Shown here: piece by piece, positions 11,800-31,590 of the stretch | Numbering within the stretch: the stretch's first letter is position 1 | Layout: each line of letters starts with the position of its first letter | Source of the DNA: Streptomyces spinoverrucosus | GTDB lineage: Bacteria; Actinomycetota; Actinomycetes; Streptomycetales; Streptomycetaceae | Length of the DNA stretch: 64,000 bases | Reading direction: 5' to 3' | Assembly: GCF_015712165.1 (NCBI RefSeq) | Contig: NZ_JADPZX010000001.1 | Coordinates: forward strand, 4,171,001-4,235,000 | Program-made: the position numbers and the translations under genes | The notes under the pieces: generated by a model | Told to the model about the DNA's origin: nothing | What the model saw: only the letters and a program-made list of their open reading frames with translations | Database searches by the model: none

Positions 11800-13425
11800 T
11801 CACAGCGTGCGCAGCAGCACCGCCGGCTGTTCCACACAGTCCGCGACATAACGCAGGAAGCCGCCCGCCGTGCCGCCGTCGCAGACCCGGTGGTCGAAGG
11901 TGAGCGAGAGCTGCACGACCTGCCGCACCGCCAGCTCGCCCTCGAAGACCCAGGGCTTGGGGACGATGCGGCCGACGCCGAGCATGGCCGCCTCGGGGTG
12001 GTTGATGATCGGCGTGGAGCCGTCGACGCCGAACACGCCGTAGTTGTTCAGCGTGAAGGTGCCGCCGGTCAGCTCCGCCGGGGTGAGCTTCCCGGCCCGG
12101 GCCGCCTCCGTGAGCCGGGCGAACTCGGCGGTCAGCCCCTCGGCATCCCGCGCGTGCGCGTCCCGGACGACCGGCACGACCAGTCCCCGCTCGGTCTGGG
12201 CGGCGAAGCCCAGGTGCACATGGTCCAGCTGGACGACCTCCCTGGCCGCCATGTCGACGGTGGAGTTCAGCTCGGGGAAGCGGGCGAGCGCGGCGGTGCA
12301 GATCCGGGCCAGCAGGGCGAGCAGGGCGATCTTGGGGCCGCCGGCCGCGTTCATCGCGGTGCGGGCCCGCATCAGCTCCGTCGCGTCGGCGTCCACCCAG
12401 CAGGTCGCGTCCGGGATCTCCCGCCTGCTGCGGGACAGCTTCTCGGCGACGGCTCCCCGGACGCCCTTCAGGGGAACGCGGGTGCCGGCGGTGAGGCCCG
12501 TCGAGGTGACCGGGGCGGGCGTCGGTGCGTGCGGCTCGGCCTGGGCCGGTGCGGCGGCCACACGTGCGCGCGGCTCGGCCTGCGCCGGTGCGGCGGCTCC
12601 CCGCGTGCGCGGCTCGGTCTGCGGCTGGGCGGAACGGCCCTGCGCGGCGGCGGCCCGCAGCGCGTACTCCACGTCCGCACGCAGGATCAGCCCGTCCGGC
12701 CCCGAGCCCGTCAGCTCCCGCAGATCCAGCCCGTTCTCCCGGGCGAGCCGCCGTACGAGGGGCGAGATCACCGGCACGGGGCCTTCGCCGCGGGTGCCGT
12801 CGCCGTTGGCGTGGCCGTCGACGGGTTCCGTCGGGGACACCGGGGCAGGAGCGGCCTGTGCCTGCGCTGCGACCGATGCCCTCGCAGGAGACATGGGCGC
12901 CTGGGGCCGCACCCGCCGGCGCCGCGCCGGGGCCGCACCCGTGCCGTAGCCCACGAGGACGTTGCCGGATCCTGTGTCGGAGCCGCCGCCGGTCCGCGCA
13001 GGATCCGAGCCGTTGGCCGAAGCAGCGCTGGAGCCCTCGACGGCAGCGGCGCCGGCAGCCGAGCCCGCACCCGTGCCCTGAGCCGCCCCGGAGCCCGACC
13101 CCAAACCCGTGCCCTGAGCCGCCCCGGCACCTGTGCCCGAACCCGCGTCCGTGCCCTCACCCGCGTCCTCGGAGGCCACCGCGCCCACCGCCACCGTCAG
13201 CAGCGGGGCCCCGACCGGGAGTTCCGTGCCCTCCTCGCCGAAGCGGGCCGTGACCACGCCGCCGTAGGGGCAGGGGACCTCGACCATCGCCTTGGCCGTC
13301 TCGACCTCGACGACCGGCTGGTCGACGGCGACGACGTCGCCGACCTGCACCAGCCAGCGCACGATCTCCGCCTCGGTGAGCCCTTCTCCGAGGTCGGGGA
13401 GCTTGAACTCCAGCACCTGTGCCAT
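11800..13425 (-). CDS. bkdC: Branched-chain 2-oxoacid dehydrogenase E2 (dihydrolipoyl acyltransferase)
   Basis: A 541-residue E2 core enzyme. It has an N-terminal lipoyl domain (about 1-76) with the lipoylated Lys in VETAKAMVEV, then a very long Gly/Ala/Ser/Pro linker. The peripheral subunit-binding domain (SPLVRRLARENGLDLRELTG) follows, then a second Ala/Pro-rich linker and the catalytic domain ending with the active-site FDHRVCDGG. It transfers the branched acyl group from E1 to CoA. In Streptomyces these CoA esters are primers for branched fatty acids and building blocks for polyketides. The start ATG 13425 overlaps the E1beta stop by one base (TGATG). The unusually long, repeat-rich linker (13000-13170) is notable. 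Confidence 0.94.
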   Translation of the reverse strand: MAQVLEFKLPDLGEGLTEAEIVRWLVQVGDVVAVDQPVVEVETAKAMVEVPCPYGGVVTARFGEEGTELPVGAPLLTVAVGAVASEDAGEGTDAGSGTGAGAAQGTGLGSGSGAAQGTGAGSAAGAAAVEGSSAASANGSDPARTGGGSDTGSGNVLVGYGTGAAPARRRRVRPQAPMSPARASVAAQAQAAPAPVSPTEPVDGHANGDGTRGEGPVPVISPLVRRLARENGLDLRELTGSGPDGLILRADVEYALRAAAAQGRSAQPQTEPRTRGAAAPAQAEPRARVAAAPAQAEPHAPTPAPVTSTGLTAGTRVPLKGVRGAVAEKLSRSRREIPDATCWVDADATELMRARTAMNAAGGPKIALLALLARICTAALARFPELNSTVDMAAREVVQLDHVHLGFAAQTERGLVVPVVRDAHARDAEGLTAEFARLTEAARAGKLTPAELTGGTFTLNNYGVFGVDGSTPIINHPEAAMLGVGRIVPKPWVFEGELAVRQVVQLSLTFDHRVCDGGTAGGFLRYVADCVEQPAVLLRTL

Positions 13426-14429
13426 CAGCTCTCGGCCTCCCATTGCAGTCGCGCCACGGCGTCCAGGATGCGGTCGACGCCAGGGAGATGGTGCCTCTCC
13501 AGCATCGGCGGCGGGTAGGGGATGTCGAACCCGGCCACGCGCAGCACCGGCGCCTCCAGGTGGTGGAAGCAGCGCTCCGTGACCCGGGCCGCGATCTCCC
13601 CGCCCGGTCCGGCGAACCCGCCCGACTCATGGACGACGACCGCTCGCCCGGTCCGTCGTACCGAGGCACAGACCGTCTCGTCGTCGAACGGCACCAGGGA
13701 GCGCAGGTCGACCACTTCGAGGTCCCACCCTTCGGCCCGGGCCGCCTCGGCGGCTTCGAGGCAGACGGGTACCGACGGCCCGTACGTGATGAGCGTGGCG
13801 CTCCGACCGGAGCGCCGCACCACCGCGCGGCCAATGGGTTCAACGGTCTCGGGGGCCTCCGGGTTCCAGGCGTCCTTCGACCAGTACAGCCGCTTGGGCT
13901 CCAGGACGACGACCGGGTCGTCGGAGGCGATGGCGGCGCGCAGCAGGCCGTAGGCGTCGGCGACGGTCGCGGGCGTGACGACATGGAGCCCCGGAGTCGC
14001 CATGTAGTACGCCTCGGAGGAGTCGCTGTGGTGTTCGACGCCGCCGATGCCGCCGCCGTAGGGGACGCGGATGGTGATCGGCAGGGGCATCTTGCCGCGC
14101 GTGCGGTTGCGCATGCGCGCCACATGGCTGACGAGCTGCTCGAACGACGGGTAGGCGAACGCGTCGAACTGCATCTCGACGACCGGCCTGAGCCCGTACA
14201 TCGCCATGCCGACGGCCGTGCCGAGGATGCCGGCCTCGGCGAGCGGGGTGTCCGTGCAGCGGTCCTCGCCGAACTCCTTGGCGAGCCCGTCGGTGACACG
14301 GAAGACGCCGCCCAGGGTGCCGACGTCCTCGCCCATCACGTGCACGGACGGGTCGGCGGCCATGGCGTCGCGCATCGCGCGGGTGAGGGCCTGGGCCATG
14401 GTGGCGGGCTTCACGGCGACCGTCGTCAT
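13425..14429 (-). CDS. bkdB: Branched-chain 2-oxoacid dehydrogenase E1 beta
   Basis: A 334-residue E1 beta subunit, the partner that completes the thiamine-diphosphate site of BCKDH. It begins MTTVAVKPATMAQALTRAM. Conserved blocks are GEDVGTLGGVFRVTDGL, the substrate-side segment MQFDAFAYPSFEQ and PYGGGIGGVEHHSDSSEAY. ATG 14429 overlaps the E1 alpha stop by one base (TGATG). A longer frame running upstream is antisense shadow and is rejected. Confidence 0.94.
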   Translation of the reverse strand: MTTVAVKPATMAQALTRAMRDAMAADPSVHVMGEDVGTLGGVFRVTDGLAKEFGEDRCTDTPLAEAGILGTAVGMAMYGLRPVVEMQFDAFAYPSFEQLVSHVARMRNRTRGKMPLPITIRVPYGGGIGGVEHHSDSSEAYYMATPGLHVVTPATVADAYGLLRAAIASDDPVVVLEPKRLYWSKDAWNPEAPETVEPIGRAVVRRSGRSATLITYGPSVPVCLEAAEAARAEGWDLEVVDLRSLVPFDDETVCASVRRTGRAVVVHESGGFAGPGGEIAARVTERCFHHLEAPVLRVAGFDIPYPPPMLERHHLPGVDRILDAVARLQWEAES

Positions 14430-15562
14430 CACAGGGCCCCTTCCTGCCCGGCCTCCAGCTCGGCCCGCAACAGGGCCTGCTGCTCGCGCAGTTGCGGGGT
14501 CGGCTCGGCGTAGACGTGGGCGAACAGGTCCATGGGGTCGAGTTCGGGGTCCTGGTTCAGGCGGGCGCGCAGGTCGGCGGCGAGTGCCTCGGCGTCCTCG
14601 CGCGCGGCCCGGGCACCGGCCTCGTCGAGCCAGCCCCGCTCGGTCAACTCCCGCTCCAGCAGTGCGATCGGGTCGTGGTCCCGCCAGGCGTCGACCTCGG
14701 AGTCCGCGCGGTAGCGCTTGTCGTCGTCCGCGTTCGTGTGCGCCTCCACGCGGTACGTCACCGCCTCCACGAGCGTCGGACCGCCCCCCGCGCGCGCGTG
14801 CCGTACGGCGTGGGCGAGGACCTCGTGCACGGCGGCGGCGTCGTTGCCGTCGACCAGGCGGCCCGGCATGCCGTACCCGACGGCCTTGTGGGCCAGGGAG
14901 GGCGCGGCGGTCTGCTTGGCGAGCGGGACGGAGATCGCGAAGCCGTTGTTCTGGACCAGGAAGACGACCGGGGCCTGCCATACGGCGGCGAAGTTCAGCG
15001 CCTCGTGGAAGTCGCCCTCACTGGTGCCGCCGTCACCGACGATCGCCAGCGCGACCACGTCGTCGCCCTTGAGGCGGGCGGCGTGCGCGAGGCCGACTGC
15101 GTGCGGGAGCTGGGTGGCGAGCGGGGTGCACAGGGGGGCGACGCGGTGGGCGTACGGGTCGTAGCCGGTGTGCCAGTCGCCGCGCAGCAGGGTGAGCGCC
15201 TCGACGGGGTCCACGCCCCGGACGACGGCGGCGAGGGTGTCGCGGTAGCTGGGGAAGAGCCAGTCGCGGTCCTTCAGGACCAGCGCGGCGGCGACCTCGC
15301 AGGCCTCCTGGCCGGTGCTGGACGGGTAGACGGCGAGGCGGCCCTGCTTGGTGAGAGCGGTGGCCTGCGCGTTGTACCGGCGGCCGCGTACCAGCTGGGC
15401 GTACAGCCGGCGCAGGAGTTCGGGGTCGGCCTTGGCAGCCGCCTCGGTGCCGAGCACGCGGTACGGAGCCGCGTCGGGCAGCAGCGGCGTGGGGTCGGTG
15501 CGGGGCTGCCAGGCGGGCGGCGGCGACGGTTTGTACGCGCCACGCTGCTCCATGACCGTCAT
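14429..15562 (-). CDS. bkdA: Branched-chain 2-oxoacid dehydrogenase E1 alpha
   Basis: A 377-residue E1 alpha subunit that decarboxylates keto acids of Val, Leu and Ile with thiamine diphosphate. The ThDP motif is seen as IVGDGGTSEGDFHEALNFA ... VQNNGFAIS (GDG-X-about 25-NN). The phosphorylation-loop-like region YRVEAHTNADD is also present. First gene of the bkdABC operon; ATG 15562 has a GAGGAGGT box. The promoter contains an ACCGA-N4-TCGGT dyad (15624-15637). Confidence 0.94.
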   Translation of the reverse strand: MTVMEQRGAYKPSPPPAWQPRTDPTPLLPDAAPYRVLGTEAAAKADPELLRRLYAQLVRGRRYNAQATALTKQGRLAVYPSSTGQEACEVAAALVLKDRDWLFPSYRDTLAAVVRGVDPVEALTLLRGDWHTGYDPYAHRVAPLCTPLATQLPHAVGLAHAARLKGDDVVALAIVGDGGTSEGDFHEALNFAAVWQAPVVFLVQNNGFAISVPLAKQTAAPSLAHKAVGYGMPGRLVDGNDAAAVHEVLAHAVRHARAGGGPTLVEAVTYRVEAHTNADDDKRYRADSEVDAWRDHDPIALLERELTERGWLDEAGARAAREDAEALAADLRARLNQDPELDPMDLFAHVYAEPTPQLREQQALLRAELEAGQEGAL

Positions 15563-15623: not shown

Positions 15624-15637
15624 ACCGATTGTTCGGT
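15624..15637. promoter_or_regulatory. PaaR-like dyad in bkd promoter
   Basis: ACCGATTGTTCGGT, an ACCGA-N4-TCGGT inverted repeat about 60 bases before bkdA. It shares the outer arms of the two dyads in the paa region but has TG instead of CG at its centre. Confidence 0.6.
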
Positions 15638-15671
15638 CGACGGCACATTTTGGCTACAGGCGACCCACGGC

Positions 15672-15693
15672 TGTGGACAAACGGTTCTCCACA
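15672..15693. promoter_or_regulatory. Inverted pair of DnaA-box-like 9-mers
   Basis: TGTGGACAA (15672-15680; reverse of the DnaA box TTGTCCACA) faces TTCTCCACA (15685-15693). They lie in the divergent bkdA/bkdR promoter. DnaA could bind or titrate here; inference only. Confidence 0.45.
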
Positions 15694-15737
15694 GCCTGAG
15701 ATGGACGCATTACGTCCATGGTAGAGAGGTGGGGGAC

Positions 15738-16238
15738 ATGGCATCTGAACAAATGGCCGAAGGGCCGGAGGCCGGCGCCACCCTGCCGCCGCCGCGTCCC
15801 CTCGACGCGATCGACCAGGACATCCTGCGGATGCTCCAGGCCGACGGCCGCGCGTCGATACGGTCCGTCGCCGAACGGGTCCATGTCTCGCGCGCCAACG
15901 CCTACGCGCGCATCAACCGGCTCGTCGAGGACGGCGTCATCCGCGGTTTCGGAGCCCGCGTCGACCACGAGCGCGCGGGTCAGGGGACGTCGGCGTACAT
16001 CACCCTGAAGATCGTCCAGAACTCCTGGCGCACGGTGCGCGAGCAGCTCAGACAGCTGCCCGGCGCCTCGCACATCGCCCTCGTCGGGGGCGATTTCGAC
16101 GTGCTGCTGCTGGTGCACACCTCCGACAACCGGGCGCTGCGCGAGGTGGTGCTCACCCGGCTCCAGGCGATCCCGGAGGTGCTCAGCACGCGCACGTTGC
16201 TGGTGTTCGAGGAGGAGGACCTGGAACCGCAGGGCTAG
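15738..16238 (+). CDS. bkdR: Lrp/AsnC-family regulator (BkdR-like)
   Basis: A 166-residue Lrp/AsnC regulator. The N-terminal winged HTH (DAIDQDILRMLQADGRASIRS ... VSRANAYARINRLVEDGVI, about 22-72) is followed by the RAM/ligand-binding domain (GTSAYITLKI ... ALVGGDFDVLLLV). It is transcribed divergently from bkdABC, which it likely regulates in response to branched-chain amino acids, as described for Streptomyces BkdR. ATG 15738 is chosen; GTG 15729 is in frame and possible. Confidence 0.88.
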   Translation: MASEQMAEGPEAGATLPPPRPLDAIDQDILRMLQADGRASIRSVAERVHVSRANAYARINRLVEDGVIRGFGARVDHERAGQGTSAYITLKIVQNSWRTVREQLRQLPGASHIALVGGDFDVLLLVHTSDNRALREVVLTRLQAIPEVLSTRTLLVFEEEDLEPQG

Positions 16239-16278
16239 AGCGTGGCGTTCGGATCGTGCCGGGGTCGCTGGTCCTGGG

Positions 16279-16869
16279 TCAGCGGTCCTGCCGGAGCCCG
16301 CCGAACACCAACTGCGCCACCGCGTCGACCACTTCGCGCTCCCCCATGCCGCGCCCGTCGGGCCGGTACCACTCGACGATCGAGTTGATCATGCCGAAGA
16401 CCAGCCGGGTGGCCAGCCGCACCTCCACGTCGCCGCGCACATCCCCGTCCGCGGCGGCGGCCTTCAGCAACTCGGCGACCCGGTGGTCGAAGTCGCGGCG
16501 CCGCTCCAGCGCCCACCGCTCGGTGTCCGTGTTGCCACGCACCCGCAGCAGCAACGTCACGTACGGGAGTTCGGCTATGAGGACCTCGACCATGCGCCGC
16601 ACGACGTACTCCAGCCGCTCGACGGCACGCCCCACGCGCGCGGGCTCCTCGTCGAGGATCCCGAAGAGTTCGTCCAGCGCCCGGCTCACGGCCCGGCGCA
16701 GCAGCTCCTCCTTGCCCGTGACGTGGTGGTAGATCGACGACTTGGAGATGCCGGCGGCCTTGGACAGGTGCTCCATGGAGGTGCCGTCGTAGCCGCGCTC
16801 GTTGAAGACCTGTACGGCGACCGACAGCAGCGTCTCCGGGGTGTACGTGTCGCGCTTGGCAGTGGTCAT
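16279..16869 (-). CDS. paaR: TetR/AcrR repressor, PaaR-like
   Basis: A 196-residue TetR regulator: HTH at about 12-55 (LLSVAVQVFNERGYDGTSME ... GISKSSIYHHVTGKEELL) and a helical ligand domain. Its start overlaps the stop of the 3-hydroxyacyl-CoA dehydrogenase gene (ATGA), so it is the last gene of that unit, set beside paaN and near paaABCDE. Repression relieved by phenylacetyl-CoA is the known behaviour of PaaR and is inferred here from context. The candidate operators are ACCGA-N4-TCGGT dyads. Confidence 0.82.
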   Translation of the reverse strand: MTTAKRDTYTPETLLSVAVQVFNERGYDGTSMEHLSKAAGISKSSIYHHVTGKEELLRRAVSRALDELFGILDEEPARVGRAVERLEYVVRRMVEVLIAELPYVTLLLRVRGNTDTERWALERRRDFDHRVAELLKAAAADGDVRGDVEVRLATRLVFGMINSIVEWYRPDGRGMGEREVVDAVAQLVFGGLRQDR

Positions 16870-18383
16870 GACGTGCTGCCCTCCCGCTTGTCGGAGGCGT
16901 ACGCGTGGCGGTAGAGCGCGAGGGACGGCGCGTAGCGCCCGGAGGGGTCGCGCAGGTGCAGGTCGTCGAGGAGGGCGTACGCCCAGTTGCGGCCCAGGCG
17001 GCGGCTCCATTCGAAGGGGCCGAGCGGGTAGTTGACGCCCAGCCGCATCGCGGTGTCGATGTCCTCCTCGGTGGCGACGCCCTTGGCTACGGCGTCGTAC
17101 GCGAGGTCGAGGATCCGCGCGACGGTGCGGGCGACGATCATGCCGGGCACGTCGCCGATGACGCTGACCTTCTTGCCGAGTGCCTGGAACAGGCCGGTGG
17201 CCTCGCTGAGGGTCTGCGGGGAGGTGTCCTGGGATGCGGACAGGGCGATGCGGGTGGCCCGCCGGTAGTCGAGGGCGAGGTCGAAGTAGACGACGTCCCG
17301 GAACTCCACCGAGGTCTGGCCGTCGGCGAGCGCCAGCTGGCCGCCGCTGGGCAGCACCAGCCGTGTGCCGTGGTCCTCGTCCTCCTCGCGGACCTGGATG
17401 CCCGCCTCGCGGATCAGCGCCAGCAGCTCGGACGCGGGGCCCAGGTCGCCCTCGGCGACGACGTAGGCGGGCGGCTGGACGGTTTCCGCGGTGTGCGGCT
17501 CGGCGCGCTCGGCGTCGTCCCGGTAGTCGTACCAGCCCTGGCCGGACTTGCGGCCGAGCCGGCCGGACTCCACCAGGCGGCGCTGGGCGAGCGACGGCGT
17601 GAAGCGCACATCCTGGAAGAAGGACTGCCACACGGAGTGCGTCACGGACTCGTTGACGTCCTGCCCGATGAGGTCGGTCAGCTCGAAGGCGCCCATCCGG
17701 AAGCCGCCGCACTCGCGCAGCACGGCGTCGATGGTGGCGGGGTCGGCGCCGTGCGCCTCGTAGACGGCGAAGGCCTCGGCGTAGAAGGGCCGGGCGATGC
17801 GGTTGACGATGAAGCCGGGGGTGTCGGCGCAGGCCACCGGCGTCTTGCCCCAGGCGCGGGCCGTCTCGTACGCGCGCGTGGCCGAGGTGACGTCGGTGGC
17901 GAACCCGGAGACCACCTCGACCAGCGGCAGCAGCGGGGCGGGGTTGAAGAAGTGCAGGCCGACGAAGCGGCCCGGGGCGCGCAGGGCGCCGCCGATGGCC
18001 GTCACCGACAGCGAGGAGGTGTTGGTGGCGAGCAGACAGTCCTCGGCGACCACGTCCTCCAGCTCGCGCATCAGCTCCTGCTTGACGTCCAGCCGCTCCA
18101 GGACGGCCTCGACGACGAGGGCGCAGTCGGCGAGCTCGGCGAGGCTCTCGGCGGGCAGCAGACGGGCGCGCGCGGCGTCCCGGTCGGCGCCGGTGAGCCG
18201 CTCCTTCTCGACGAGCCGGTCGAGCCGGGCACCGATCGCGGCGGCGGCTTCGTGGGCGCGCCCGGGGACGGCGTCGTACAGCCGTACGGGGTGGCCCGCG
18301 ACCAGCGCCACCTGGGCGATGCCCTGGCCCATGGTGCCGGTGCCGACGACGGCCACGGGGCTGCTGAGGTCGAGTGCTGTCAT
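16866..18383 (-). CDS. paaH: 3-hydroxyacyl-CoA dehydrogenase (PaaH-like)
   Basis: A 505-residue NAD-dependent 3-hydroxyacyl-CoA dehydrogenase. The N-terminal Rossmann fold begins VAVVGTGTMGQGIAQVALVAG (about 11-31), with the conserved ATNTSSLSVTAI segment and a catalytic-region GLHFFNPAPLLPLVEVV. Two 3HCDH C-terminal domains follow (GFIVNRIARPFYAEA... and MIVARTVARILDLAYDAV). In phenylacetate catabolism PaaH oxidises 3-hydroxyadipyl-CoA. Length suits the two-C-domain PaaH/PaaC type. It is divergent from paaN. Confidence 0.88.
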   Translation of the reverse strand: MTALDLSSPVAVVGTGTMGQGIAQVALVAGHPVRLYDAVPGRAHEAAAAIGARLDRLVEKERLTGADRDAARARLLPAESLAELADCALVVEAVLERLDVKQELMRELEDVVAEDCLLATNTSSLSVTAIGGALRAPGRFVGLHFFNPAPLLPLVEVVSGFATDVTSATRAYETARAWGKTPVACADTPGFIVNRIARPFYAEAFAVYEAHGADPATIDAVLRECGGFRMGAFELTDLIGQDVNESVTHSVWQSFFQDVRFTPSLAQRRLVESGRLGRKSGQGWYDYRDDAERAEPHTAETVQPPAYVVAEGDLGPASELLALIREAGIQVREEDEDHGTRLVLPSGGQLALADGQTSVEFRDVVYFDLALDYRRATRIALSASQDTSPQTLSEATGLFQALGKKVSVIGDVPGMIVARTVARILDLAYDAVAKGVATEEDIDTAMRLGVNYPLGPFEWSRRLGRNWAYALLDDLHLRDPSGRYAPSLALYRHAYASDKREGSTS

Positions 18384-18406
18384 GGACGCGATCCTCCCGC
18401 ACGGGG

Positions 18407-18415
18407 TTTTCCACA
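18407..18415. promoter_or_regulatory. DnaA-box-like 9-mer
   Basis: TTTTCCACA, one mismatch from TTGTCCACA, just upstream of the paaH start in the paaH/paaN gap. Confidence 0.3.
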
Positions 18416-18438
18416 GATGCGGCGGACCCCCTTGAGCC

Positions 18439-18452
18439 GACCGATCGTTCGG
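18439..18452. promoter_or_regulatory. PaaR-type operator between paaH and paaN
   Basis: ACCGATCGTTCGGT, an inverted repeat ACCGA-N4-TCGGT. The surrounding 16 bases (18436-18451) are the exact reverse complement of 23186-23201 before paaA. It matches the core ACCG-NN-CG-NN-CGGT that I recall for Corynebacterium PaaR. Confidence 0.75.
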
Positions 18453-18543
18453 TTACTCTAACTCTGACTGCGTGTTCCTGCCCATGTTTCTGCCCAGGTC
18501 ATGAGCTCGACGAGGAGCTCACAAGACGAGGAGTTGGTCCCGC

Positions 18544-20235
18544 ATGGCCGCCGAACTCACCGCCCACGAGCTGATCACCCAGCACCGGCCCACCCTCGAC
18601 CAGGCGCTGGAAGCGATCCGCACACGCGCGTACTGGTCCCCCCACCCCGAGCACCCGAAGGCCTACGGGGAGAACGGCAGCCTGGACGCCGCCGCGGGCA
18701 AGGCCGCCTTCGACGCCCTGCTCGGCAACCGCCTCGACCTCGGCCAGCCCGGCACGGACGACTGGGTGGAGGGTGAAGTCTCCCCGTACGGCATCGAGTT
18801 GGGCGTCAGCTACCCGCACGCGGACATCGACGTGCTGCTGCCCGCCATGCGGGCCGGACAGCGCGCCTGGCGTGACGCGGGTCCGGAGGCCCGGGCCATG
18901 GTCTGCCTGGAGATCCTCAAGCGGATCAGCGACCGGACGCACGAGTTCGCGCACGCCGTCATGCACACCTCCGGCCAGGCCTTCATGATGGCGTTCCAGG
19001 CGGGCGGCCCGCACGCGCAGGACCGCGGCCTGGAGGCGGTGGCGTACGCGTACGTGGAGCAGGTCCGCACCCCCGACACCGCGGAGTGGACCAAGCCGCA
19101 GGGCAAGCGCGACCCGCTCGCGCTGACCAAGCGGTTCACCGCGGTCCCGCGCGGCATCGGCCTGGTGATCGGCTGCAACACCTTCCCGACGTGGAACGGC
19201 TACCCGGGCCTGTTCGCCTCCCTCGCCACCGGCAACGCTGTCCTGGTCAAGCCCCACCCGCGCGCGGTGCTGCCGCTCGCGCTCACCGTGCAGGTGGCGC
19301 GCCAGGTGCTCACGGAGGCCGGCTTCGACGCGAACCTGGTCGCGCTGGCCGCCGAGCGCCCCGGTGAGGGCATCGCCAAGACCCTCGCCGTCCGCCCCGA
19401 GATCCGGATCATCGACTACACCGGCTCGACGGCGTTCGGCGACTGGCTGGAGGCCAACGCCCGCCAGGCGCAGGTCCACACGGAGAAGGCCGGCGTCAAC
19501 ACGGTGATCGTGGAGTCGACCGGCGACTACAAGGGGATGCTGTCCAACCTGGCGTTCTCGCTGTCGCTGTACAGCGGCCAGATGTGCACCACCCCGCAGA
19601 ACCTGCTCATCCCCCGCGACGGCATCCGCACCGACCAGGGCCCCAGGTCCTTCGACGAGGTGGTCGCCGACCTCGCCCAGGCGGTCGACGGACTGCTCGG
19701 CGACGACACGCGCGCGAACGCGCTGCTCGGCGCCATCGTCAACCCGGACGTCAAGGCACGCCTGGAGGCCGCGGCCGGCCTGGGCGAAGTCGCCCTCGCC
19801 TCACGGGAGATCAGCAACCCCGACTTCCCGGGTGCGGTGGTCCGCACGCCCGTGGTCGTCAAGCTGGACGGCGCCAAGCCCGACGACGAGGCCGCCTACA
19901 TGAGCGAGTGCTTCGGCCCGGTCTCCTTCGCCGTCGCCGTCGACTCGGCCACCGACGCGGTGGAGTTGCTGCGCCGGACCGTCCGCGAGAAGGGCGCGAT
20001 GACGGTCGGCGCGTACACGACCGACGAGGAGGTCGAGCGGGAGATCGAGGAGGCCTGCCTGGAGGAGGCCGCGCAGCTCTCGCTGAACCTGACCGGTGGG
20101 GTGTACGTCAACCAGACCGCCGCCTTCTCCGACTTCCACGGCTCGGGCGGCAACCCGGCGGCCAACTCGGCGCTGACCGACGGGGCGTTCGTCGCGAACC
20201 GCTTCCGGGTGGTGGAGGTACGCCGGGAGGCCTGA
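18544..20235 (+). CDS. paaN: Phenylacetate degradation aldehyde dehydrogenase PaaN
   Basis: A 563-residue aldehyde-dehydrogenase-superfamily protein of the PaaN type, proposed to oxidise the semialdehyde made after ring opening of the phenylacetyl-CoA epoxide/oxepin. Recognisable blocks are VIGCNTFPTWNGYPGLFASL (cofactor fold), the catalytic-Cys region SLSLYSGQMCTTPQNLL, and C-terminal NLTGGVYVNQTAAFSDFHG. It lacks the C-terminal hotdog hydratase of E. coli PaaZ. ATG 18544 follows a GAGGAG-rich leader. Its 3' end is four bases from the convergent methyltransferase. Confidence 0.9.
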   Translation: MAAELTAHELITQHRPTLDQALEAIRTRAYWSPHPEHPKAYGENGSLDAAAGKAAFDALLGNRLDLGQPGTDDWVEGEVSPYGIELGVSYPHADIDVLLPAMRAGQRAWRDAGPEARAMVCLEILKRISDRTHEFAHAVMHTSGQAFMMAFQAGGPHAQDRGLEAVAYAYVEQVRTPDTAEWTKPQGKRDPLALTKRFTAVPRGIGLVIGCNTFPTWNGYPGLFASLATGNAVLVKPHPRAVLPLALTVQVARQVLTEAGFDANLVALAAERPGEGIAKTLAVRPEIRIIDYTGSTAFGDWLEANARQAQVHTEKAGVNTVIVESTGDYKGMLSNLAFSLSLYSGQMCTTPQNLLIPRDGIRTDQGPRSFDEVVADLAQAVDGLLGDDTRANALLGAIVNPDVKARLEAAAGLGEVALASREISNPDFPGAVVRTPVVVKLDGAKPDDEAAYMSECFGPVSFAVAVDSATDAVELLRRTVREKGAMTVGAYTTDEEVEREIEEACLEEAAQLSLNLTGGVYVNQTAAFSDFHGSGGNPAANSALTDGAFVANRFRVVEVRREA

Positions 20236-20239
20236 GCAG

Positions 20240-21025
20240 TCAGGCCGCCGCGCCCCCGGTGGCGCTCCAGTGGTACAGCGTCATGGCCACGCTGGTCGCG
20301 AGGTTGTAGCTGGAGACCTGGGGGCGCATCGGCAACGCCACCAGATGGTCGGCACGCGCGCGTACGGCCGCGGACAGGCCGCTGCGCTCCGAGCCGAACG
20401 CGAGCAGCGCGTCGTCCGGCAGCTTCAGGCCGCGGATGTCCTCGCCCTCCGGGTCGAGGGCGAACAGCGGCCCGGGCGGCAGTTCCTCGACGTCCAGCCG
20501 CTCCACGGCGGTCGCGAAGTGCAGCCCGGCGCCGCCCCGGACGACCGTGGGATGCCAGGGGTCGAGCGTGCCGGTCGTGACCACGCCGGTCGCCCCGAAG
20601 CCGGCCGCCAGCCGGATCACGGCCCCGGCGTTGCCGAGGTTGCGCGGCTCGTCGAGGACCACGACGGGCGCGCTGCGGGGCGTGCGGGCCAGCGCCCGCA
20701 GATTGGCCTCACGGGACGGCCGTACCGCCAAGGCGGCCACGGCCGTCGGATGCGGGCGCGGCACCAGGGAGGCGTACGTCGACTCCGGGACCTCGGTGAG
20801 CAGCGCGGCCAGCGTCTGCCGTACGTCCGGCGCGAGCTCGTCGGCGAGGGCAAGCGCGGCCTCGCGGTCGGCGGCAACCGCGAGGGGCACCTCGGCTCCG
20901 AAGCGCAGGGCGTGCTTGAGGGCGTGGAAGCCGTCGAGCAGCACGGACGTGCCGGCGAGGCGGCGCCAGGCGCTCACCTGCTGCTGTGGGGAGCCGCCGG
21001 AGTCCCTGGCCGCGGGGTCGTTCAT
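20240..21025 (-). CDS. SpoU/TrmH-family RNA 2'-O-methyltransferase
   Basis: A 261-residue SPOUT methyltransferase. SpoU motifs are visible: EPRNLGNAGAVIRLAAGFGA (motif 1), FGSERSGLS (motif 2) and SYNLATSVAMTLYHW (motif 3, trefoil-knot SAM site). An N-terminal substrate-binding part lies at about 20-100. Uses SAM to methylate ribose in tRNA or rRNA; the exact target is not readable. It overlaps the upstream HTTM gene by four bases (ATGA), forming an operon with two membrane-protein genes inside the paa region. Confidence 0.9.
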   Translation of the reverse strand: MNDPAARDSGGSPQQQVSAWRRLAGTSVLLDGFHALKHALRFGAEVPLAVAADREAALALADELAPDVRQTLAALLTEVPESTYASLVPRPHPTAVAALAVRPSREANLRALARTPRSAPVVVLDEPRNLGNAGAVIRLAAGFGATGVVTTGTLDPWHPTVVRGGAGLHFATAVERLDVEELPPGPLFALDPEGEDIRGLKLPDDALLAFGSERSGLSAAVRARADHLVALPMRPQVSSYNLATSVAMTLYHWSATGGAAA

Positions 21026-22248
21026 GCCGTGAAGCCTACGTGGGTCTGTTCGGCGTCCCCCGGGCGCTCGGCGGCGTCCGGCCTCCGCTGCGCCGGGACC
21101 TTGGGACGACCGCGCCGGAACAGCCGCCCACGCGCGCGTGCGGCCCAGTCACCCAGGCGGCGCAGGAACGACGTCGGCAGGAAGACCGCGTCCGCCGCGA
21201 TCATCGCCAGCGAGAAGAACGGCAGCCCGAGCACCACGGCGATCACGGCGTGCTCGATGATCATCGCGGCCAGCAGGACGTTCTTGACCCGCCGGTGGAA
21301 CAGCGTGAACGGAAAGGCGACCTGGACGATCACGGTCCCGTACGTGATGAGCATGACCAAGGTGCCGCTGGCGGACAGCAGGTCGGCGAGGGCGGGCCAG
21401 GGCGAGAAGTACTCCAGGTGCAGGGGGTAGTAGACGGCGGTGCCGTCCTGCCAGCGGGAGCCCTGGATCTTGTACCAGCCGGCCGTGGCGTAGATCAGAC
21501 AGGCCTCGGCCATGATCACGAGCAGCGCGCCGTTGTGCAGGATGTTGGCGATCACGTCGAGCAGGATCCGGGGCTGACCGGTGCGCGTGAGGCGCCCCGC
21601 GAGCCACCACAGGGCCTGCGCCACCCACACGCCCCACAGCAGCGCCGGCACCAGCCAGTCGCCGTCCAGCCGGCCCGCCATGGTCACGCCGAACAGCACC
21701 AGCCCGAACACGCCCCACAGCGCGGGGCCGGTCCGGTCGGTGACCCGCTTCCCGCGCGCGCGTGCCTCGCGTGCGCGCCGGGCCCGTCGCGCGTCCAGGG
21801 ACCACACCTGGCCGCATCGTGTGAACACCAGGTACACGCACATCAGGTGCAGCACGTTGTCGCCGCCGTCGCCCATGAAGACGCTGCGGTTCTGCAGCGA
21901 GAGCACGCCGACCATGAAGAGCACGGACATGGTGCGGGTGCGCCAGCCCAGCATCAGCAGCAGGCTGGTCAGCACGCCGAGCGCGTAGACGGTCTCGAAC
22001 CAGAGCTGCCCGTCGGACCACATCAGGGCGGTGAAGGCGCCGTTCGCGCCGATCAGCTGCTCGGCGAGGTCCCAGCTCCACGGGCCGTCGGGGCCGTACA
22101 GCTCCTGCCGGTGCGGGATCTCGCGCAGCAGGAACAGCAGCCAGGTCGCGGTGAACCCGATGCGGATCACGGCGGTCTGGTACGGGCCGAGGGCGGACTC
22201 CGTGACCCGGGCGATACCCCGGGAGACGGCCAGGGCGAAGCGGCTCAC
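21022..22248 (-). CDS. HTTM-domain membrane protein (gamma-carboxylase-like)
   Basis: A 408-residue integral membrane protein with the HTTM (horizontally transferred transmembrane) fold shared with vitamin K-dependent gamma-carboxylase. Several helices are evident (VIRIGFTATWLLFLLREIP, VYALGVLTSLLLML, GVFGLVLFGVTMAG, LVMLITYGTVIVQVAFP). Characteristic pieces are FMGDGGDNVLHLMCVYLVF and ATAGWYKIQGSRWQDGTAVYYP. GTG 22248 overlaps the DUF5819 stop (GTGA); the frame upstream of it is shadow. HTTM and DUF5819 genes are commonly paired in actinobacteria. Biochemical role unknown. Confidence 0.85.
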   Translation of the reverse strand: MSRFALAVSRGIARVTESALGPYQTAVIRIGFTATWLLFLLREIPHRQELYGPDGPWSWDLAEQLIGANGAFTALMWSDGQLWFETVYALGVLTSLLLMLGWRTRTMSVLFMVGVLSLQNRSVFMGDGGDNVLHLMCVYLVFTRCGQVWSLDARRARRAREARARGKRVTDRTGPALWGVFGLVLFGVTMAGRLDGDWLVPALLWGVWVAQALWWLAGRLTRTGQPRILLDVIANILHNGALLVIMAEACLIYATAGWYKIQGSRWQDGTAVYYPLHLEYFSPWPALADLLSASGTLVMLITYGTVIVQVAFPFTLFHRRVKNVLLAAMIIEHAVIAVVLGLPFFSLAMIAADAVFLPTSFLRRLGDWAARARGRLFRRGRPKVPAQRRPDAAERPGDAEQTHVGFTA

Positions 22249-23000
22249 CGGACGCCTCCCCCGGCCTTGTCGTGCGGCACCGACCACCAGGGCAGCACCC
22301 GGTACACCGGCTTGAGCGATATCCGCTCCTCGCTCCACTCGGGCGGACGGACGCTGGTGGTCCGCGAGCGGATCTGGACCTGCTCGACGACACCGCCCGG
22401 CCCGGCCGCGTCCGCGCGGTCCAGGCGCAGCACCACGATCCGGCGCAGATACGTCTCGCTCAGCGCGCCGCGCAGGCCCGAGGGGCGGTTGTTGCCGTCG
22501 TGGGTGGCGGTGTAGAAGTCCCAGGCGCGGCGCAGCTCGTTCTGCTGGGTGTGGCTCGGCAGCAGATTGCCGTCGATGGCCCTGCCGTCCTGCGCGGACA
22601 GGTCGTACCAGCCGGTGGTGCGGATGCTGCCGTCACCCGTTCGGATCTCTGCGCGGACCTGGACCGCGATGTTCTGCTGCAGCGGGTTCGGCGCGAACAG
22701 TTTCCAGTTCTGTTCGAACTCCGGGTAGATCCATTCGTCGATCGCCTTGCCGTGCTGCTTGGTGACCGTGTTCGACGGCGCGACGTGCAGAAAGACCATC
22801 CCCAGATGTACACAGACGGCGACCGCGACGACGGCGAGGGCCAGCGCGACGCCGATCTGATAGCGCGGGGAGAGGGCGGCGACACCGGTGCGGGGTCCCG
22901 GCAGGGGCTCGCTCACGCCGTCAGGGGCGCCCTGCGCGCCCCCCGCGGGCGGCGCGCTCGCACCCCTGTCGTACGTGTCCTTCGCGCCCTGCGCGTCCAT
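22245..23000 (-). CDS. DUF5819 family membrane-anchored protein
   Basis: A 251-residue protein with a disordered Ala/Gly/Pro N-terminus, one membrane helix ([20 protein letters not shown]) and an extracytoplasmic domain. The extracytoplasmic domain carries the family's [20 protein letters not shown] and [11 protein letters not shown] segments. It is predicted to work with the HTTM protein encoded next, possibly as an accessory. ATG 23000 has a GGGGCGGA box and fits better than the frame's earlier in-frame start at 23084. Confidence 0.82.
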
Positions 23001-23107
23001 TCCGCCCCGATTCCGATCCCGTTCCGGTCCTTCTGCGCCGCCCGGCAGCCCCCTCGCACGCGAACGGTACTCAGGCCGACCCACCGGGCACAGCCCCTTC
23101 GATCAGC

Positions 23108-23139
23108 TCGTCCACAGCCGCGCCGACGGGTTATCCACA
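23108..23139. promoter_or_regulatory. Two DnaA-box-like 9-mers upstream of paaA
   Basis: TCGTCCACA (23108-23116) and TTATCCACA (23131-23139) lie in the same orientation in the gap between the DUF5819 gene and paaA. Confidence 0.4.
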
Positions 23140-23184
23140 GCGGTTGACACCTTACGGCGCCCGTCCGACCATGGAATCGCACGA

Positions 23185-23198
23185 ACCGAACGATCGGT
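23185..23198. promoter_or_regulatory. PaaR-type operator upstream of paaA
   Basis: ACCGAACGATCGGT, an ACCGA-N4-TCGGT dyad about 40 bases before the paaA start. With flanks (23186-23201) it is the exact reverse complement of the site at 18436-18451. Confidence 0.75.
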
Positions 23199-23239: not shown

Positions 23240-24247
23240 ATGGCGACAGCAGCCGCGCAGAAGACGGACCACACAGCGTCGTACGACGGGGACGGCACCG
23301 CCGCCGCCACCGCCGGGTACGAGCGCGCCTTCGACGCCGCCGTGGCCGCCGACGAGCGCATCGAGCCACGCGACTGGATGCCCGACGCCTACCGGGCGAC
23401 GCTGGTCCGCCAGATCGCCCAGCACGCGCACTCCGAGATCATCGGCATGCAGCCGGAGGCCAACTGGATCACCCGCGCGCCCTCCCTGCGCCGCAAGGCC
23501 ATCCTGATGGCCAAGGTCCAGGACGAGGCCGGCCACGGGCTGTACCTGTACAGCGCGGCGGAGACGCTCGGCACGGGCCGCGACGAGCTGCTCGACAAGC
23601 TGCACAGCGGCCGCCAGAAGTACTCCTCGATCTTCAACTACCCCACGCTGACCTGGGCGGACGTCGGCGCGATCGGCTGGCTCGTGGACGGCGCCGCGAT
23701 CACCAACCAGGTGCCGCTGTGCCGCTGCTCCTACGGCCCGTACGCGCGTGCGATGGTCCGCATCTGCAAGGAGGAGTCCTTCCACCAGCGCCAGGGGTAC
23801 GAGCTGCTGCTGGCCCTCAGCCGCGGCACGCCCGAGCAGCACGCGATGGCGCAGGACGCGGTGGACCGCTGGTGGTGGCCGTCCCTGATGATGTTCGGCC
23901 CGCCCGACGACGCATCGCAGCACTCGGCGCAGTCGATGGCCTGGAAGATCAAGCGGCACTCGAACGACGAGCTGCGCCAGCGCTTCGTCGACATCTGCGT
24001 CCCCCAGGCCGAGTCCCTCGGCCTCACCCTCCCCGACCCGAACTTGCGGTGGAACGAGGAGCGGGGGCACCACGACTTCGGGGCGATCGACTGGACGGAG
24101 TTCTGGGAGGTTCTCAAGGGCAACGGTCCGTGCAACGAGCAGCGCATCACACAGCGCAGGCGGGCGCACGAAGAGGGCGCCTGGGTACGGGAGGCGGCCG
24201 CGGCGTACGCGGCCAAGCACAGCGAGACAGGAGCTACGCGCGCATGA
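23240..24247 (+). CDS. paaA: Phenylacetyl-CoA epoxidase subunit PaaA
   Basis: A 335-residue catalytic subunit of the ring-1,2-phenylacetyl-CoA epoxidase, a bacterial multicomponent diiron monooxygenase. The diiron ligands are in the helices [15 protein letters not shown] and [17 protein letters not shown] (E-x2-H motifs). The EARLY residues [28 protein letters not shown] fall in a conserved block split here by position rather than motif. ATG 23240 has a GAGGGGG box; the frame extends upstream to 23144 through the operator, so those codons are not coding. The stop overlaps paaB (ATGA). Confidence 0.95.
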
Positions 24248-25247: not shown

Positions 25248-25768
25248 CCACGACCGCCCTGGAAGAGGAACTCATCGCGATCGCCGGCTCGGTGCCCGAC
25301 CCCGAGCTGCCGGTCCTCACCCTGCGGGAACTGGGCGTCCTGCGCGCGGTACGCCTGCGCGGCGAGGACGCGGTCGACGTCGAGCTGACCCCGACGTACA
25401 CCGGCTGCCCCGCGATAGAGGCCATGTCCCTGGACATAGAGCGGGCGCTGCACGAGCACGGCATACGGGAGGTCACCGTCCGCACGGTGCTTTCGCCGGC
25501 CTGGTCGACGGACGACATCACGCCCGAAGGGCGCCGCAAACTGCGGGAGTTCGGTATCGCACCACCCCGGGTGGGCACGCGTTCCGGACCGGTGTCACTG
25601 GAGCTGGGCCCGACGCGCGCGCTCACACAGGAACCGGACCCCGTCCGCTGCCCGCACTGCGGTTCCGCCGACACCGAGCTGCTGAGCCGTTTCTCCTCCA
25701 CGGCCTGCAAGGCACTCCGGCGCTGCCTGGCGTGCCGTGAACCGTTCGACCACTTCAAGGAGTTGTGA
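25241..25768 (+). CDS. paaD: Phenylacetate 1,2-epoxidase maturation protein PaaD
   Basis: A 175-residue MIP18/DUF59-family protein. Residues about 8-90 hold the DUF59 fold with VPDPELPVLTLRELGVLR and the conserved Cys in TPTYTGCPAIEAM. A C-terminal four-Cys zinc-like motif (CPHCGSADTELL ... CKALRRCLACREPF) is typical of PaaD. It is thought to assist iron-sulfur or diiron assembly. It overlaps paaC by seven bases and abuts paaE (TGATG). Confidence 0.93.
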   Translation: MVTTTALEEELIAIAGSVPDPELPVLTLRELGVLRAVRLRGEDAVDVELTPTYTGCPAIEAMSLDIERALHEHGIREVTVRTVLSPAWSTDDITPEGRRKLREFGIAPPRVGTRSGPVSLELGPTRALTQEPDPVRCPHCGSADTELLSRFSSTACKALRRCLACREPFDHFKEL

Positions 25769-26826
25769 TGGCCCGCTTCCACACGCTCCCGGTGATCGCG
25801 GTCGACCGGCTCACCGACGACTCCGTCGCCGTCACGCTCGCGGTGCCCGAGGAGCTGCGCGCGGAGTACCGGTACGCGCCCGGCCAGCACATCGCCCTGC
25901 GGCGCACCGTCGACGGCGTCGACATCCGGCGGACGTACTCGATCTGCGCCCCGGCGCCCCGGGACGGCGAGGGACCGTGCACCCTGCGGGTGGGGGTGCG
26001 GCTGGTGGAGGGCGGCGCCTTCTCGACGTACGCGCTCAAGGAGATCAACGTCGGTGACGAGCTGGAGGTGATGACACCGGCCGGCCGCTTCACCCTCGAC
26101 CCCGCTCCCGGGCTGTACGCGGCGATCGTCGGCGGCAGCGGGATCACGCCGGTGCTGTCGATCGCGACGACGCTGCTGGCACGCGAGCCCGAGGCCCGGT
26201 TCTGCCTGATCCGCAGCGACCGTACGTCCGCCTCGACGATGTTCCTGGAGGAGGTCGCCGATCTGAAGGACCGCTTCCCCGAGCGGTTTCAGCTGGTGAC
26301 CGTGCTCTCCCGGGAGGAACAACAGGCGGGACTGCCGTCCGGGCGGCTGGACCGGGAGCGGCTGACGGGCCTGCTGCCGGCGCTGCTGCCGGTGGCCGAC
26401 GTGGCGGGCTGGTACCTGTGCGGGCCGTACGGGCTGGTGCAGGAGGCCGAGCGGGCGCTGCGCGGACTTGAGGTGCCGCGCGGCCGGATCCACGAGGAGA
26501 TCTTCCATGTGGACGCGGCGCCGGCCGCCGCGCCGTCGACGGCCCCCACGCACAGCACGGTGACCGCGCGGCTCGACGGCCGAGGCGGGACCTGGCCGGT
26601 GCAGGACGGTGAGTCGCTGCTGGAGACGGTGCTGCGCAACCGTTCCGACGCGCCCTACGCCTGCAAGGGCGGGGTGTGCGGCACATGCCGGGCCTTCCTG
26701 GTCTCCGGGGAGGTGCGCATGGACCGCAACTTCGCGCTGGAACGGGAGGAGACGGAGGCCGGGTATGTGCTGGCGTGCCAGTCGCATCCGGTGACGGAGA
26801 GGGTGGAGCTGGACTTCGACCGCTAG
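25768..26826 (+). CDS. paaE: Phenylacetyl-CoA epoxidase reductase PaaE
   Basis: A 352-residue NADPH-dependent reductase that feeds electrons to PaaA. Order: FAD-binding domain (RTYSICAP motif), NAD(P)-binding domain (AAIVGGSGITPVLSIATTLL), and a C-terminal plant-type 2Fe-2S ferredoxin with YACKGGVCGTCRAF and a fourth Cys in LACQSHP. Last gene of paaABCDE. ATG 25768 overlaps the paaD stop; a GTG one codon earlier is in frame. Confidence 0.94.
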   Translation: MARFHTLPVIAVDRLTDDSVAVTLAVPEELRAEYRYAPGQHIALRRTVDGVDIRRTYSICAPAPRDGEGPCTLRVGVRLVEGGAFSTYALKEINVGDELEVMTPAGRFTLDPAPGLYAAIVGGSGITPVLSIATTLLAREPEARFCLIRSDRTSASTMFLEEVADLKDRFPERFQLVTVLSREEQQAGLPSGRLDRERLTGLLPALLPVADVAGWYLCGPYGLVQEAERALRGLEVPRGRIHEEIFHVDAAPAAAPSTAPTHSTVTARLDGRGGTWPVQDGESLLETVLRNRSDAPYACKGGVCGTCRAFLVSGEVRMDRNFALEREETEAGYVLACQSHPVTERVELDFDR

Positions 26827-29428: not shown

Positions 29429-29876
29429 CCGACCAGCGCCTCACACCGGCCTCACCGACCCCGGACCACCACCCCTGACCGACGACCTCATTCCCCGCCC
29501 CAGCGGCCGACCAGCGCCTCACACCGGCCTCAGCGACCCCGGGCCACCACCCCTGACCGACGGCCTCATTCCCCGCCCCAGCGGGCCGACCAGCACCTCA
29601 CACCCCCACCTCAACAGACCCGGCCATCACCACCGACCGACGTCTCACACCCGCCCCAGCGGCCGACCAGCACCTCACACCCCCACCTCAACAGACCCGG
29701 CCATCACCACCGACCGACGTCTCACACCCGCCCCAGCGGGCCACCGACGCTCCACACCCCACCCTCAGCGGCCCCCGGCCACCAGCGCCACCACCCGCCG
29801 ATCGGCGCTCAGACCCGCCCAAGCGGGCCGGCGGCCGCTTCACACCCCACCTCAGCAGGCCGACGACGCCTCACAC
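29429..29876. repeat. Degenerate ~78-bp tandem repeat filling an intergenic gap
   Basis: The gap between the J-domain and DUF2252 genes (both minus strand) is C/A-rich repeated DNA. Units begin CCGACCAGC-CCTCACACC at 29429, 29507, 29586 and 29663, each 77-79 bases, and end GCCCCAGCGG(G). Two more diverged units follow at 29741 and 29828. Copies 1-2 and copies 3-4 form two closely matching pairs. The last unit runs into the 3' end of the DUF2252 gene. No gene or strong hairpin is seen. Confidence 0.85.
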
Positions 29877-31301
29877 CCCCACCTCCGCCCGAACCCGCCC
29901 CGACCGCACCGCCGCCACGAGCGCCGCATGATCCGCCTCGGTCACGTCGGCGTAGGTGACGGCGAACGCCGCCATCGCCTCGTCCAGCTCCTCGTTCTTG
30001 CCGCAGTACCCGGAGATCAGGCGAGGGTCGGCGCTGTGGGAGTGGGCGCGGGCGAGGAGTGCGCCGGTCATGCGGGCGTAGTCGTCGAGCTGGTCCGTGG
30101 AGAGCGCCGCCGGGTCCACGCTGCCCTTGCGGTTGCGGAACTGGCGGACCTGGAACGGGCGGCCGTCGACGGTCGTCCAGCCGAGCAGGATGTCGCTGAC
30201 GACCTGCATCCGCTTCTGGCCGAGGACGACCCGGCGGCCCTCGTGGTCGACGGGCGGCGCCTCGAAACCGGCGGTCAGCAAGTGCGGCGTCAGCGCCGAG
30301 CCGCGGGCCTCCTTCACCTGGAGGATCAGCGCCTCACCTCGGTGGTCCAGGAGCAGGACGACGTACGAACGCAGGCCCACGCTGCCCGTGCCCACGATCC
30401 GGAACGCCACGTCGTGCACCGCGTGCCGGGACAGCAGCGGCAGACGGTCCTCCGACAGCGTCGTCAGGTAGGCCTCCAGCGCCGCCGCCACGGCCGCCGC
30501 CTCCCCGTCCGGGACCCGGCGCAGCACCGGGGGCGCGTCCACGAACCGGCGTCCGCCTTCCTCGGTCAATTCGGTCGACCGCGCCGCGAACCGCCCGCTG
30601 GTGTTGGCCCGCGCCTTCTCCGAGACCCGCTCCAGCGTGCCGAGCAGGTCATGGGCGTCGGTGTGGGACACCAGCTCCTCGTCCGCGATCGCGTTCCACG
30701 CGTCCAGCACCGGGAGCCTGGCCAGCAGCCGCATGGTGCGGCGGTAGGCGCCGGCGGCGTCATGGGCGGCCGCCCGGCAGGTGTCCTCGTCGGCCCCCGC
30801 CTCCCGGCCCGCGAGCACCAGCGAGGCGGCGAGCCGCTTCAGGTCCCACTCCCAGGGGCCGTACACCGTCTCGTCGAAGTCGTTCAGGTCGATGACCAGG
30901 CCGCCGCGCGCGTCGCCGTACAGACCGAAGTTCGCCGCGTGCGCGTCGCCGCAGATCTGGGCGCGGATGCGGGTCATGGGGGTGCGGGCGAGGTCGTACG
31001 CCATCAGGCCCGCCGATCCGCGCAGGAAGGCGAACGGCGTGGCCGCCATCCTGCCCACGCGTATCGGCGTGAGCTCCGGGATACGGCCCCGGTTCGACTC
31101 CTCGACCGCGGCCACCGCGTCGGGCCGGGCGCCGTCGAGGTCGAGGGTGGCGTGGGCGTGCCGCGGGACCCGCTCGCGCAGGGTCTTCCCCTCCGTCTTG
31201 GGCGAGCGCGCGCCCTGGCCGGTCCACTCGGCGAAGCCCCGCACTCGTGGAATCCGCACCGTCCCGGAACCCGCGCCCTGCACACCGACCTCGGTCACCA
31301 C
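29871..31301 (-). CDS. DUF2252 family protein
   Basis: A 476-residue member of the DUF2252 family, remote kinase-like (aminoglycoside-phosphotransferase-like) fold. The stretch FAFLRGSAGLMAYDLA, CGDAHAANFGLYGDARGGLVIDLNDFDET and the following WEWDLKRLAASL are the family core: GDAH and DFD resemble the catalytic HxD and metal-binding D of phosphotransferases. Function unknown. GTG 31301 has a GGGAGG box seven bases upstream; a second GTG follows immediately. Confidence 0.87.
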   Translation of the reverse strand: MVTEVGVQGAGSGTVRIPRVRGFAEWTGQGARSPKTEGKTLRERVPRHAHATLDLDGARPDAVAAVEESNRGRIPELTPIRVGRMAATPFAFLRGSAGLMAYDLARTPMTRIRAQICGDAHAANFGLYGDARGGLVIDLNDFDETVYGPWEWDLKRLAASLVLAGREAGADEDTCRAAAHDAAGAYRRTMRLLARLPVLDAWNAIADEELVSHTDAHDLLGTLERVSEKARANTSGRFAARSTELTEEGGRRFVDAPPVLRRVPDGEAAAVAAALEAYLTTLSEDRLPLLSRHAVHDVAFRIVGTGSVGLRSYVVLLLDHRGEALILQVKEARGSALTPHLLTAGFEAPPVDHEGRRVVLGQKRMQVVSDILLGWTTVDGRPFQVRQFRNRKGSVDPAALSTDQLDDYARMTGALLARAHSHSADPRLISGYCGKNEELDEAMAAFAVTYADVTEADHAALVAAVRSGRVRAEVGV

Positions 31302-31378: not shown

Positions 31379-31405
31379 TGTGGACAACTCCTCACCTGTG
31401 GAAAA
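31379..31405. promoter_or_regulatory. Pair of DnaA-box-like 9-mers
   Basis: TGTGGACAA (31379-31387, exact reverse of TTGTCCACA) and TGTGGAAAA (31397-31405) lie upstream of the DUF2252 gene. Confidence 0.4.
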
Positions 31406-31454: not shown

Positions 31455-31590
31455 CACAAAGACGTCACGCTCACAAAGACGTCACCCCCACAAAGACGTC
31501 ACCCCCACAAAGACGTCACCCCCACAAAGACGTCACCCCCACAAAGACGTCATGCCCGCAAAGGCGTCATGCCCGCAAATACGCCAACAC
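31455..31590. repeat. 17-bp tandem repeat growing out of a gene's 3' end
   Basis: Eight tandem units of 17 bases (consensus CACAAAGACGTCACCCC) start at 31455, 31472, 31489, 31506, 31523, 31540, 31557 and 31574. The last two are diverged (CGCAAAGGC, CGCAAATAC) and include the stop codon of the response regulator. On its coding strand every unit contains TGA, and because 17 is not a multiple of three these fall in all frames. Confidence 0.95.

Follow-up and report, generated by a model that had tools for sequence, protein, structure and literature searches.

The window analysed here is a stretch of 64,000 nt from the chromosome of Streptomyces spinoverrucosus (contig NZ_JADPZX010000001.1; C1 4171001-4235000 of genome G000 in our numbering). 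It carries genes of phenylacetate degradation (paa) and, next to them, the bkdABC genes of a branched-chain keto-acid dehydrogenase. Both groups share an inverted repeat of the form ACCGA-N4-TCGGT in their promoters. Sequence comparison makes it likely that the copy at bkdA is a true operator of the TetR-type repressor PaaR, which would repress paaH-paaR, paaN, paaABCDE, paaK and, in Streptomycetaceae, also bkdABC, and which phenylacetyl-CoA would release. As the phenylacetate dyad sits, near-perfectly conserved, on the bkd promoter, one repressor probably controls both the phenylacetate and the bkd operons. Motif identity, genome-wide rank, conservation and the tree pattern were computed; from them we infer PaaR binding, repression and the action of the effector at bkd. 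The dyads are the following.

15624-15637, minus strand: putative bkd operator, ACCGAACAATCGGT in the bkdA direction, 62 bases 5' of the bkdA ATG (motif search, conservation)
18440-18453, no strand assigned: PaaR dyad between the divergent paaH-paaR and paaN (motif search)
23185-23198, plus strand: PaaR dyad 5' of paaA (motif search)
G000 C3:79064-79077 (L145 9065-9078): fourth PaaR-type dyad, directly 5' of paaK and unlinked to the window (genome motif search)

An earlier note on this DNA had reported the repeat at bkdA, paaH/paaN and paaA. All three copies are there, the paaH/paaN copy at 18440-18453 instead of 18439-18452, and the bkd copy has one core change and two intact half-sites, as stated in that note. 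The two paa copies had been described as reverse complements over 16 bases; the actual extent is 18 bases.

The exact dyad occurs four times in the window (6951, 15624, 18440 and 23185) versus 0.16 expected, and none of 100 shuffles reached four copies. With two mismatches allowed the excess is only modest (62 vs 44.06 expected). The whole genome (8.85 Mb) contains just four sites within one mismatch of ACCGAACGATCGGT, which are exact at paaH/N and paaA and one base off at bkdA (ACCGAACAATCGGT) and C3:79064 (ACCGAATGATCGGT). All other matches differ by two bases (49 in total with both strands counted; backward control, 6 and 0). The gene behind the C3 dyad is paaK, its product scoring 704.5 bits against the cut-off of 646.3 in the NCBIfam phenylacetate-CoA ligase model. 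The looser 10-base dyad is found at 24 places genome-wide versus 5 for the backward pattern used as control. Of 12 loose dyads outside the three sites that were checked with a crude composition filter, seven were placed in coding-like frames and five, including the 6951 copy, outside such frames.

The exact dyad at 6951-6964 lies within an ABC-permease-like frame and is shared by a minority of related loci. It is probably a chance or coding resemblance, and was dropped as a regulatory site owing to its position inside this coding frame.

Conservation and distribution of the bkd dyad

The 14-mer ACCGAACAATCGGT is found 5' of bkdA in all 170 Streptomycetaceae loci in which this position was checked (80 + 20 + 30 + 40; the same species may recur across two collections, and 161 contexts are distinct). 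These comprise 80 Streptomyces loci fetched via the TetR protein (80/80, with the paaH/N dyad exact in 79/80), 20 additional Streptomyces selected for a divergent PaaR (20/20), the 30 best Streptomyces matches to bkdA (30/30) and 40 lower-ranking bkdA loci picked by hand, of which 39 belong to other genera (40/40). At the genome level, 384 of 394 members of the family hold the 14-mer, mostly in single copy, with 0 for the backward control among the matches listed. Two of the 384 (G351 and G376) have it in unrelated places. They were considered as bkd sites without PaaR and dropped, the positions being an unrelated repeat-bearing gene and a site before a GntR-like frame.

Throughout the broader set of loci L277-L316 the 14-mer segment is 100% identical versus 67.5% for the best non-overlapping segment. 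The bkd core in this set is invariably ACAA. The paa cores vary: other dyads with perfect half-sites show ATGA (12), ACGA (10), ATGG (8) or ACAT (5), plus one odd match.

The 14-mer is absent from 10 of the 394 family genomes. In G348, G361, G364, G374 and G378 a close bkdA is missing (no match at 1e-60, or one of 40-43% identity), and the bkdA genes of G366 and G382 branch outside the dyad clade. G500, G612 and G692 have substitutions in the bkd half-sites. These are uncompensated, and a reading of the dyad as an RNA hairpin was dropped for this reason. It was also considered whether the G500 PaaR is a broken gene; this was rejected, as the TGA is its own end and the frame is open. Three of 160 Streptomyces (G035, G114 and G149) gave no PaaR match. 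Their best bkdA matches share 40-64% identity, the 4-kb loci contain no dyad, and these genomes are therefore no test of the link between PaaR and the dyad.

G356, with 93% completeness, falls outside the 394 genomes. No PaaR match was obtained in it at 1e-15. The bkdR-bkdA pair and other promoter blocks are kept, and only the left half-site of the dyad is left.

Presence of the dyad was mapped onto a tree of 82 selected bkdA rows, whose root serves display only. Five changes of this label are required, which is compatible with a single gain at a clade comprising 54 rows (support 100/99) plus four losses.

Of 197 genomes of the class, 66 yielded a PaaR, with 46 of these outside Streptomycetaceae, and 40 PaaR regions were read from the 46. 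In 32 of the 40 there are one or more dyads with no more than two mismatches, many of them adjoining paaA, paaN, paaR or paaK; the other eight have none. The recognition-helix region is alike, with SKSSIYHH in the PaaR of the window and SKSAIYHH, TKSAIYHH and similar elsewhere. The bkdA promoters of 22 loci from outside the family (55-68% identity) show no PaaR-type dyad; one of these loci, L181, has a two-mismatch site ~1.4 kb upstream. As PaaR-type dyads stand in 32 of 40 PaaR regions outside the family while these 22 bkdA promoters lack the site, the bkd link seems confined to Streptomycetaceae as far as this sample goes.

Two genomes of another family carry a PaaR-type dyad before a metabolite/H+ symporter gene. 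In G330 it is the bkd-type 14-mer, near a paa cluster (L233:1708), and in G286 a similar dyad adjoining bkdC (L241:12306). The symporter is possibly a phenylacetate importer.

Known PaaR systems and joint expression of bkd and paa

Regulator and operator are of known kinds. One of the closest described cases is of the same genus: PaaR of S. pristinaespiralis (SSDG_03033; Zhao et al. 2015 via PMC10933834 and PMC7089894) is a TetR-type repressor of paa with the putative site AACGA-N4-TCGGT (PMC10933834). The accessible accounts in these two papers, however, do not mention a bkd target. The TetR-type PaaR proteins of Burkholderia cenocepacia and Thermus thermophilus use the dyads ACCGACCGGTCGGTT and CNAACGNNCGTTNG, respectively, with the CoA ester of the pathway, phenylacetyl-CoA, as effector, but the part of the review available relates them to paa genes alone (PMC9493321). 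A further TetR-type phenylacetate regulator of an actinobacterium is PaaR of Corynebacterium glutamicum (Chen et al. 2012, as cited in PMC3840689). From the bkd side, BkdR/SCO3832 (PMC8176718) and Saccharopolyspora PccD (PMC10933834) likewise act on branched-chain keto-acid dehydrogenase genes. BkdR belongs to the Lrp family, however, PccD is a TetR protein with an unrelated listed site, and the available accounts give neither of them a tie to phenylacetate. The bkd target would thus be a family-specific extension of PaaR control, for which we found no earlier report in the open-licence papers searched, a scope excluding key subscription papers and RegPrecise.

Expression data are available for two Streptomyces. 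For S. rimosus HP126, Table 2 of PMC10612213, which is the authors' own selection of genes, lists bkd E1 alpha, E1 beta and E2 at +5.0, +4.6 and +4.7, paaE, paaD and paaC at +4.1, +3.5 and +3.3, and a phenylacetate-CoA ligase, whose locus tag is far from the others, at +3.1. The HP126 delta-v3 column of this table gives, in the same order of genes, -2.9, -2.7 and -2.7 for bkd, -1.4, -1.0 and 0 for paaE/D/C and -1.3 for the ligase. In Streptomyces SCUT-3 on feather medium, paaK, paaABCDE, paaI, paaJ and bkdABC rise according to the accessible part of PMC7181669, the bkd copy being unspecified. Both data sets record a co-variation of bkd with paa and are no test of PaaR.

PaaR operator or another function of the bkd dyad

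That a single TetR repressor, PaaR, may serve all three operons had been proposed in the earlier note, and the idea gains comparative support from the genome-wide best sites, the conservation of the bkd site, the loss of half of it in G356, where no PaaR was detected, and the joint rise of transcripts. PaaR bound to the dyad between the divergent paaH-paaR and paaN would amount to autoregulation, and phenylacetyl-CoA would free the repressor from paa and bkd operators alike. The bkd operator probably covers the -10 region of the promoter, with AACAAT at dyad bases 5-10 as a candidate -10 box and T(A/G)GCCA 17 bases upstream. The latter is found at a fitting distance upstream of AACAAT in 134 of the 161 distinct contexts. 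AACAAT itself is invariant by construction, since the contexts were chosen for the 14-mer. An operator lying on the -10 box would explain why the asymmetric bkd core stays fixed while the paa cores drift. Moreover, a Bkd keto-acid dehydrogenase acting on phenylpyruvate would make phenylacetyl-CoA. The likely logic of such control would be feed-forward, as the inducer would switch on its own maker and its own breaker.

Branched-chain acyl-CoA starters for fatty acid synthesis and for many antibiotics come from the bkd complex. If PaaR controls bkd throughout the family, this precursor supply would depend in part on aromatic catabolism, and paaR mutants should shift branched-chain precursors too. 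There would then also be a simple and testable candidate cause for the concerted increase of bkd and paa genes in an oxytetracycline overproducer, as far as documented in the accessible source.

Several points weigh against PaaR as the repressor of bkd. G500, G612 and G692 have PaaR and bkd half-sites altered at one or two bases. G366 has paaR beside bkdR and a dyad at the paaN promoter, and none at the bkd promoter. The pattern in G356 is a single case, from a genome 93% complete and on a long branch. Among the 80 Streptomyces loci a second promoter segment is 99.9% conserved, meaning that conservation outside the dyad almost matches that of the dyad itself; because of this, the broader set L277-L316 carries the conservation argument. 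Scans with consensus promoters called no promoter. HP126 differs by 184 nucleotide exchanges as well as rearrangements with duplications (PMC10612213, accessible part), and the closeness of its bkd and paaCDE locus tags makes regional effects possible. Finally, the frozen bkd core could point to another reader than PaaR.

Such a reader could be BkdR or another regulator of branched-chain catabolism, the bkd dyad merely resembling paa operators. The contrast between the fixed ACAA and the variable paa cores would fit this explanation, as would the position of bkdR, which adjoins the dyad in the loci read, and the three PaaR-bearing genomes with altered half-sites. We nevertheless regard it as improbable. 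G356 has kept bkdR and other promoter blocks, with half of the dyad gone together with PaaR; bkdR-bkdA pairs outside the family have no such dyad in the promoter; and the bkd 14-mer differs by a single base from sites whose other occurrences are at paa genes.

A little less probable again is that PaaR does bind the dyad at bkd but hardly affects expression, or acts there as an activator, and that the site persists chiefly because it belongs to the core promoter. The frozen core and the proposed -10 box inside the dyad, seen in sequences chosen for the 14-mer, would agree with this. A -10 box leaves the intact flanking half-sites ACCGA and TCGGT unexplained, however, and in HP126 and the strain derived from it the expression of bkd shifts along with that of paa, according to the accessible part of the report. 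A chance resemblance without function, for which one may cite the exact dyad in a coding frame of the window and the two family genomes with the 14-mer in unrelated places, is hard to reconcile with the family-wide conservation and can practically be set aside.

Genes of the locus and a second shared element

The genes around the dyads were assigned by profile and structure matches.

11800-13443, minus strand: bkdC, E2 subunit (related models, below cut-offs)
13440-14429, minus strand: bkdB, E1 beta subunit (related models, below cut-offs)
14429-15562, minus strand: bkdA, branched-chain keto-acid dehydrogenase E1 alpha subunit (profile matches; SCO3831 carries the name bkdA2 in the accessible part of PMC12323332)
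15729-16238, plus strand: bkdR, Lrp/AsnC-family regulator divergent from bkdA (profile matches; SCO3832 carries the name bkdR in the accessible part of PMC8176718)
16279-16869, minus strand: PaaR, TetR repressor, SCO3833 ortholog with structure 2iai (Pfam, PDB match)
16866-18383, minus strand: PaaH-like 3-hydroxyacyl-CoA dehydrogenase (TIGR02279 below cut-off, PRK08268 above)
18544-20235, plus strand: paaN (TIGR02288 above cut-off)
23240-24247, plus strand: paaA, first gene of the epoxidase operon (TIGR02156 above cut-off)
25765-26826, plus strand: paaE-like gene in the same operon as paaA (TIGR02160 just below cut-off)

The end of the paaH-like gene overlaps the start of paaR, and hence both are probably on one transcript. 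PaaR has a TetR fold with an N-terminal helix-turn-helix: Pfam TetR_N and TetR_C_24 score above cut-off, and the chain of 2iai covers residues 1-194. None of the NCBIfam models for PaaR reached its cut-off with the TetR protein of the window. The second-best PDB match is 3vpr (E 9.5e-20), which we take to be the PaaR of Thermus. The gene sits among paa genes, overlapping paaH and near paaN and paaA, and paaH and paaN are nearby in 80/80 loci. Moreover, the dyads at paaH/N, paaA and paaK fit the PaaR sites given in reviews.

Just 5' of bkdR lies another inverted repeat, ATGGACG-N5-CGTCCAT (15701-15719), which is largely conserved in the 80 Streptomyces loci. As a guess, it is possibly a BkdR site.

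The three dyad promoters share a second element, TTNTCCACA.

15672-15680, minus strand: TTGTCCACA box, 43 bases upstream of the bkd dyad
15685-15693, plus strand: TTCTCCACA box, inverted partner of the TTGTCCACA box
18407-18415, plus strand: TTTTCCACA box, 33 bases upstream of the paaH/N dyad in the paaN direction
23131-23139, plus strand: TTATCCACA box, 54 bases upstream of the paaA dyad

The window holds six TTNTCCACA boxes versus 0.36 expected, four of them within the three dyad promoters. The other two are at 31379-31405, between the frames 29871-31301 and 31567-32226, with no PaaR-type dyad near. Across the 80 Streptomyces loci, 283 of 307 boxes are located at most 90 bases from a dyad, and a box is near 80/80 bkd, 74/79 paaH/N and 47/48 paaA dyads. 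Its distance to the dyad is fixed or nearly so at bkd and paaH/N and more varied at paaA. The rate elsewhere in these loci is 1.0 per 64 kb, and 1.3 at other places of the window's own genome (2 in 99 kb). Boxes accompany 28 of 76 dyads in L277-L316 and 2 of 55 in PaaR loci outside the family; the paaK promoter of the window genome has a one-mismatch form only. The element resembles the DnaA box, whose consensus we take to be TTGTCCACA. Speculatively, the bkd and paa promoters of Streptomycetaceae might form a two-input module, with PaaR at the dyad and a second factor at the DnaA-box-like boxes, which stand 33-54 bases upstream of each window dyad and point with transcription. Aromatic and branched-chain acyl-CoA metabolism might then be under the joint control of phenylacetyl-CoA and another signal, possibly one linked to DnaA, a scheme which we consider possible though on balance doubtful.

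In the genome, the 14-mer ACCGAGAGGTCGGT or its complement was found in five copies, at G000 C1:2073975, 3351605, 5130627, 5292403 and 6147569.

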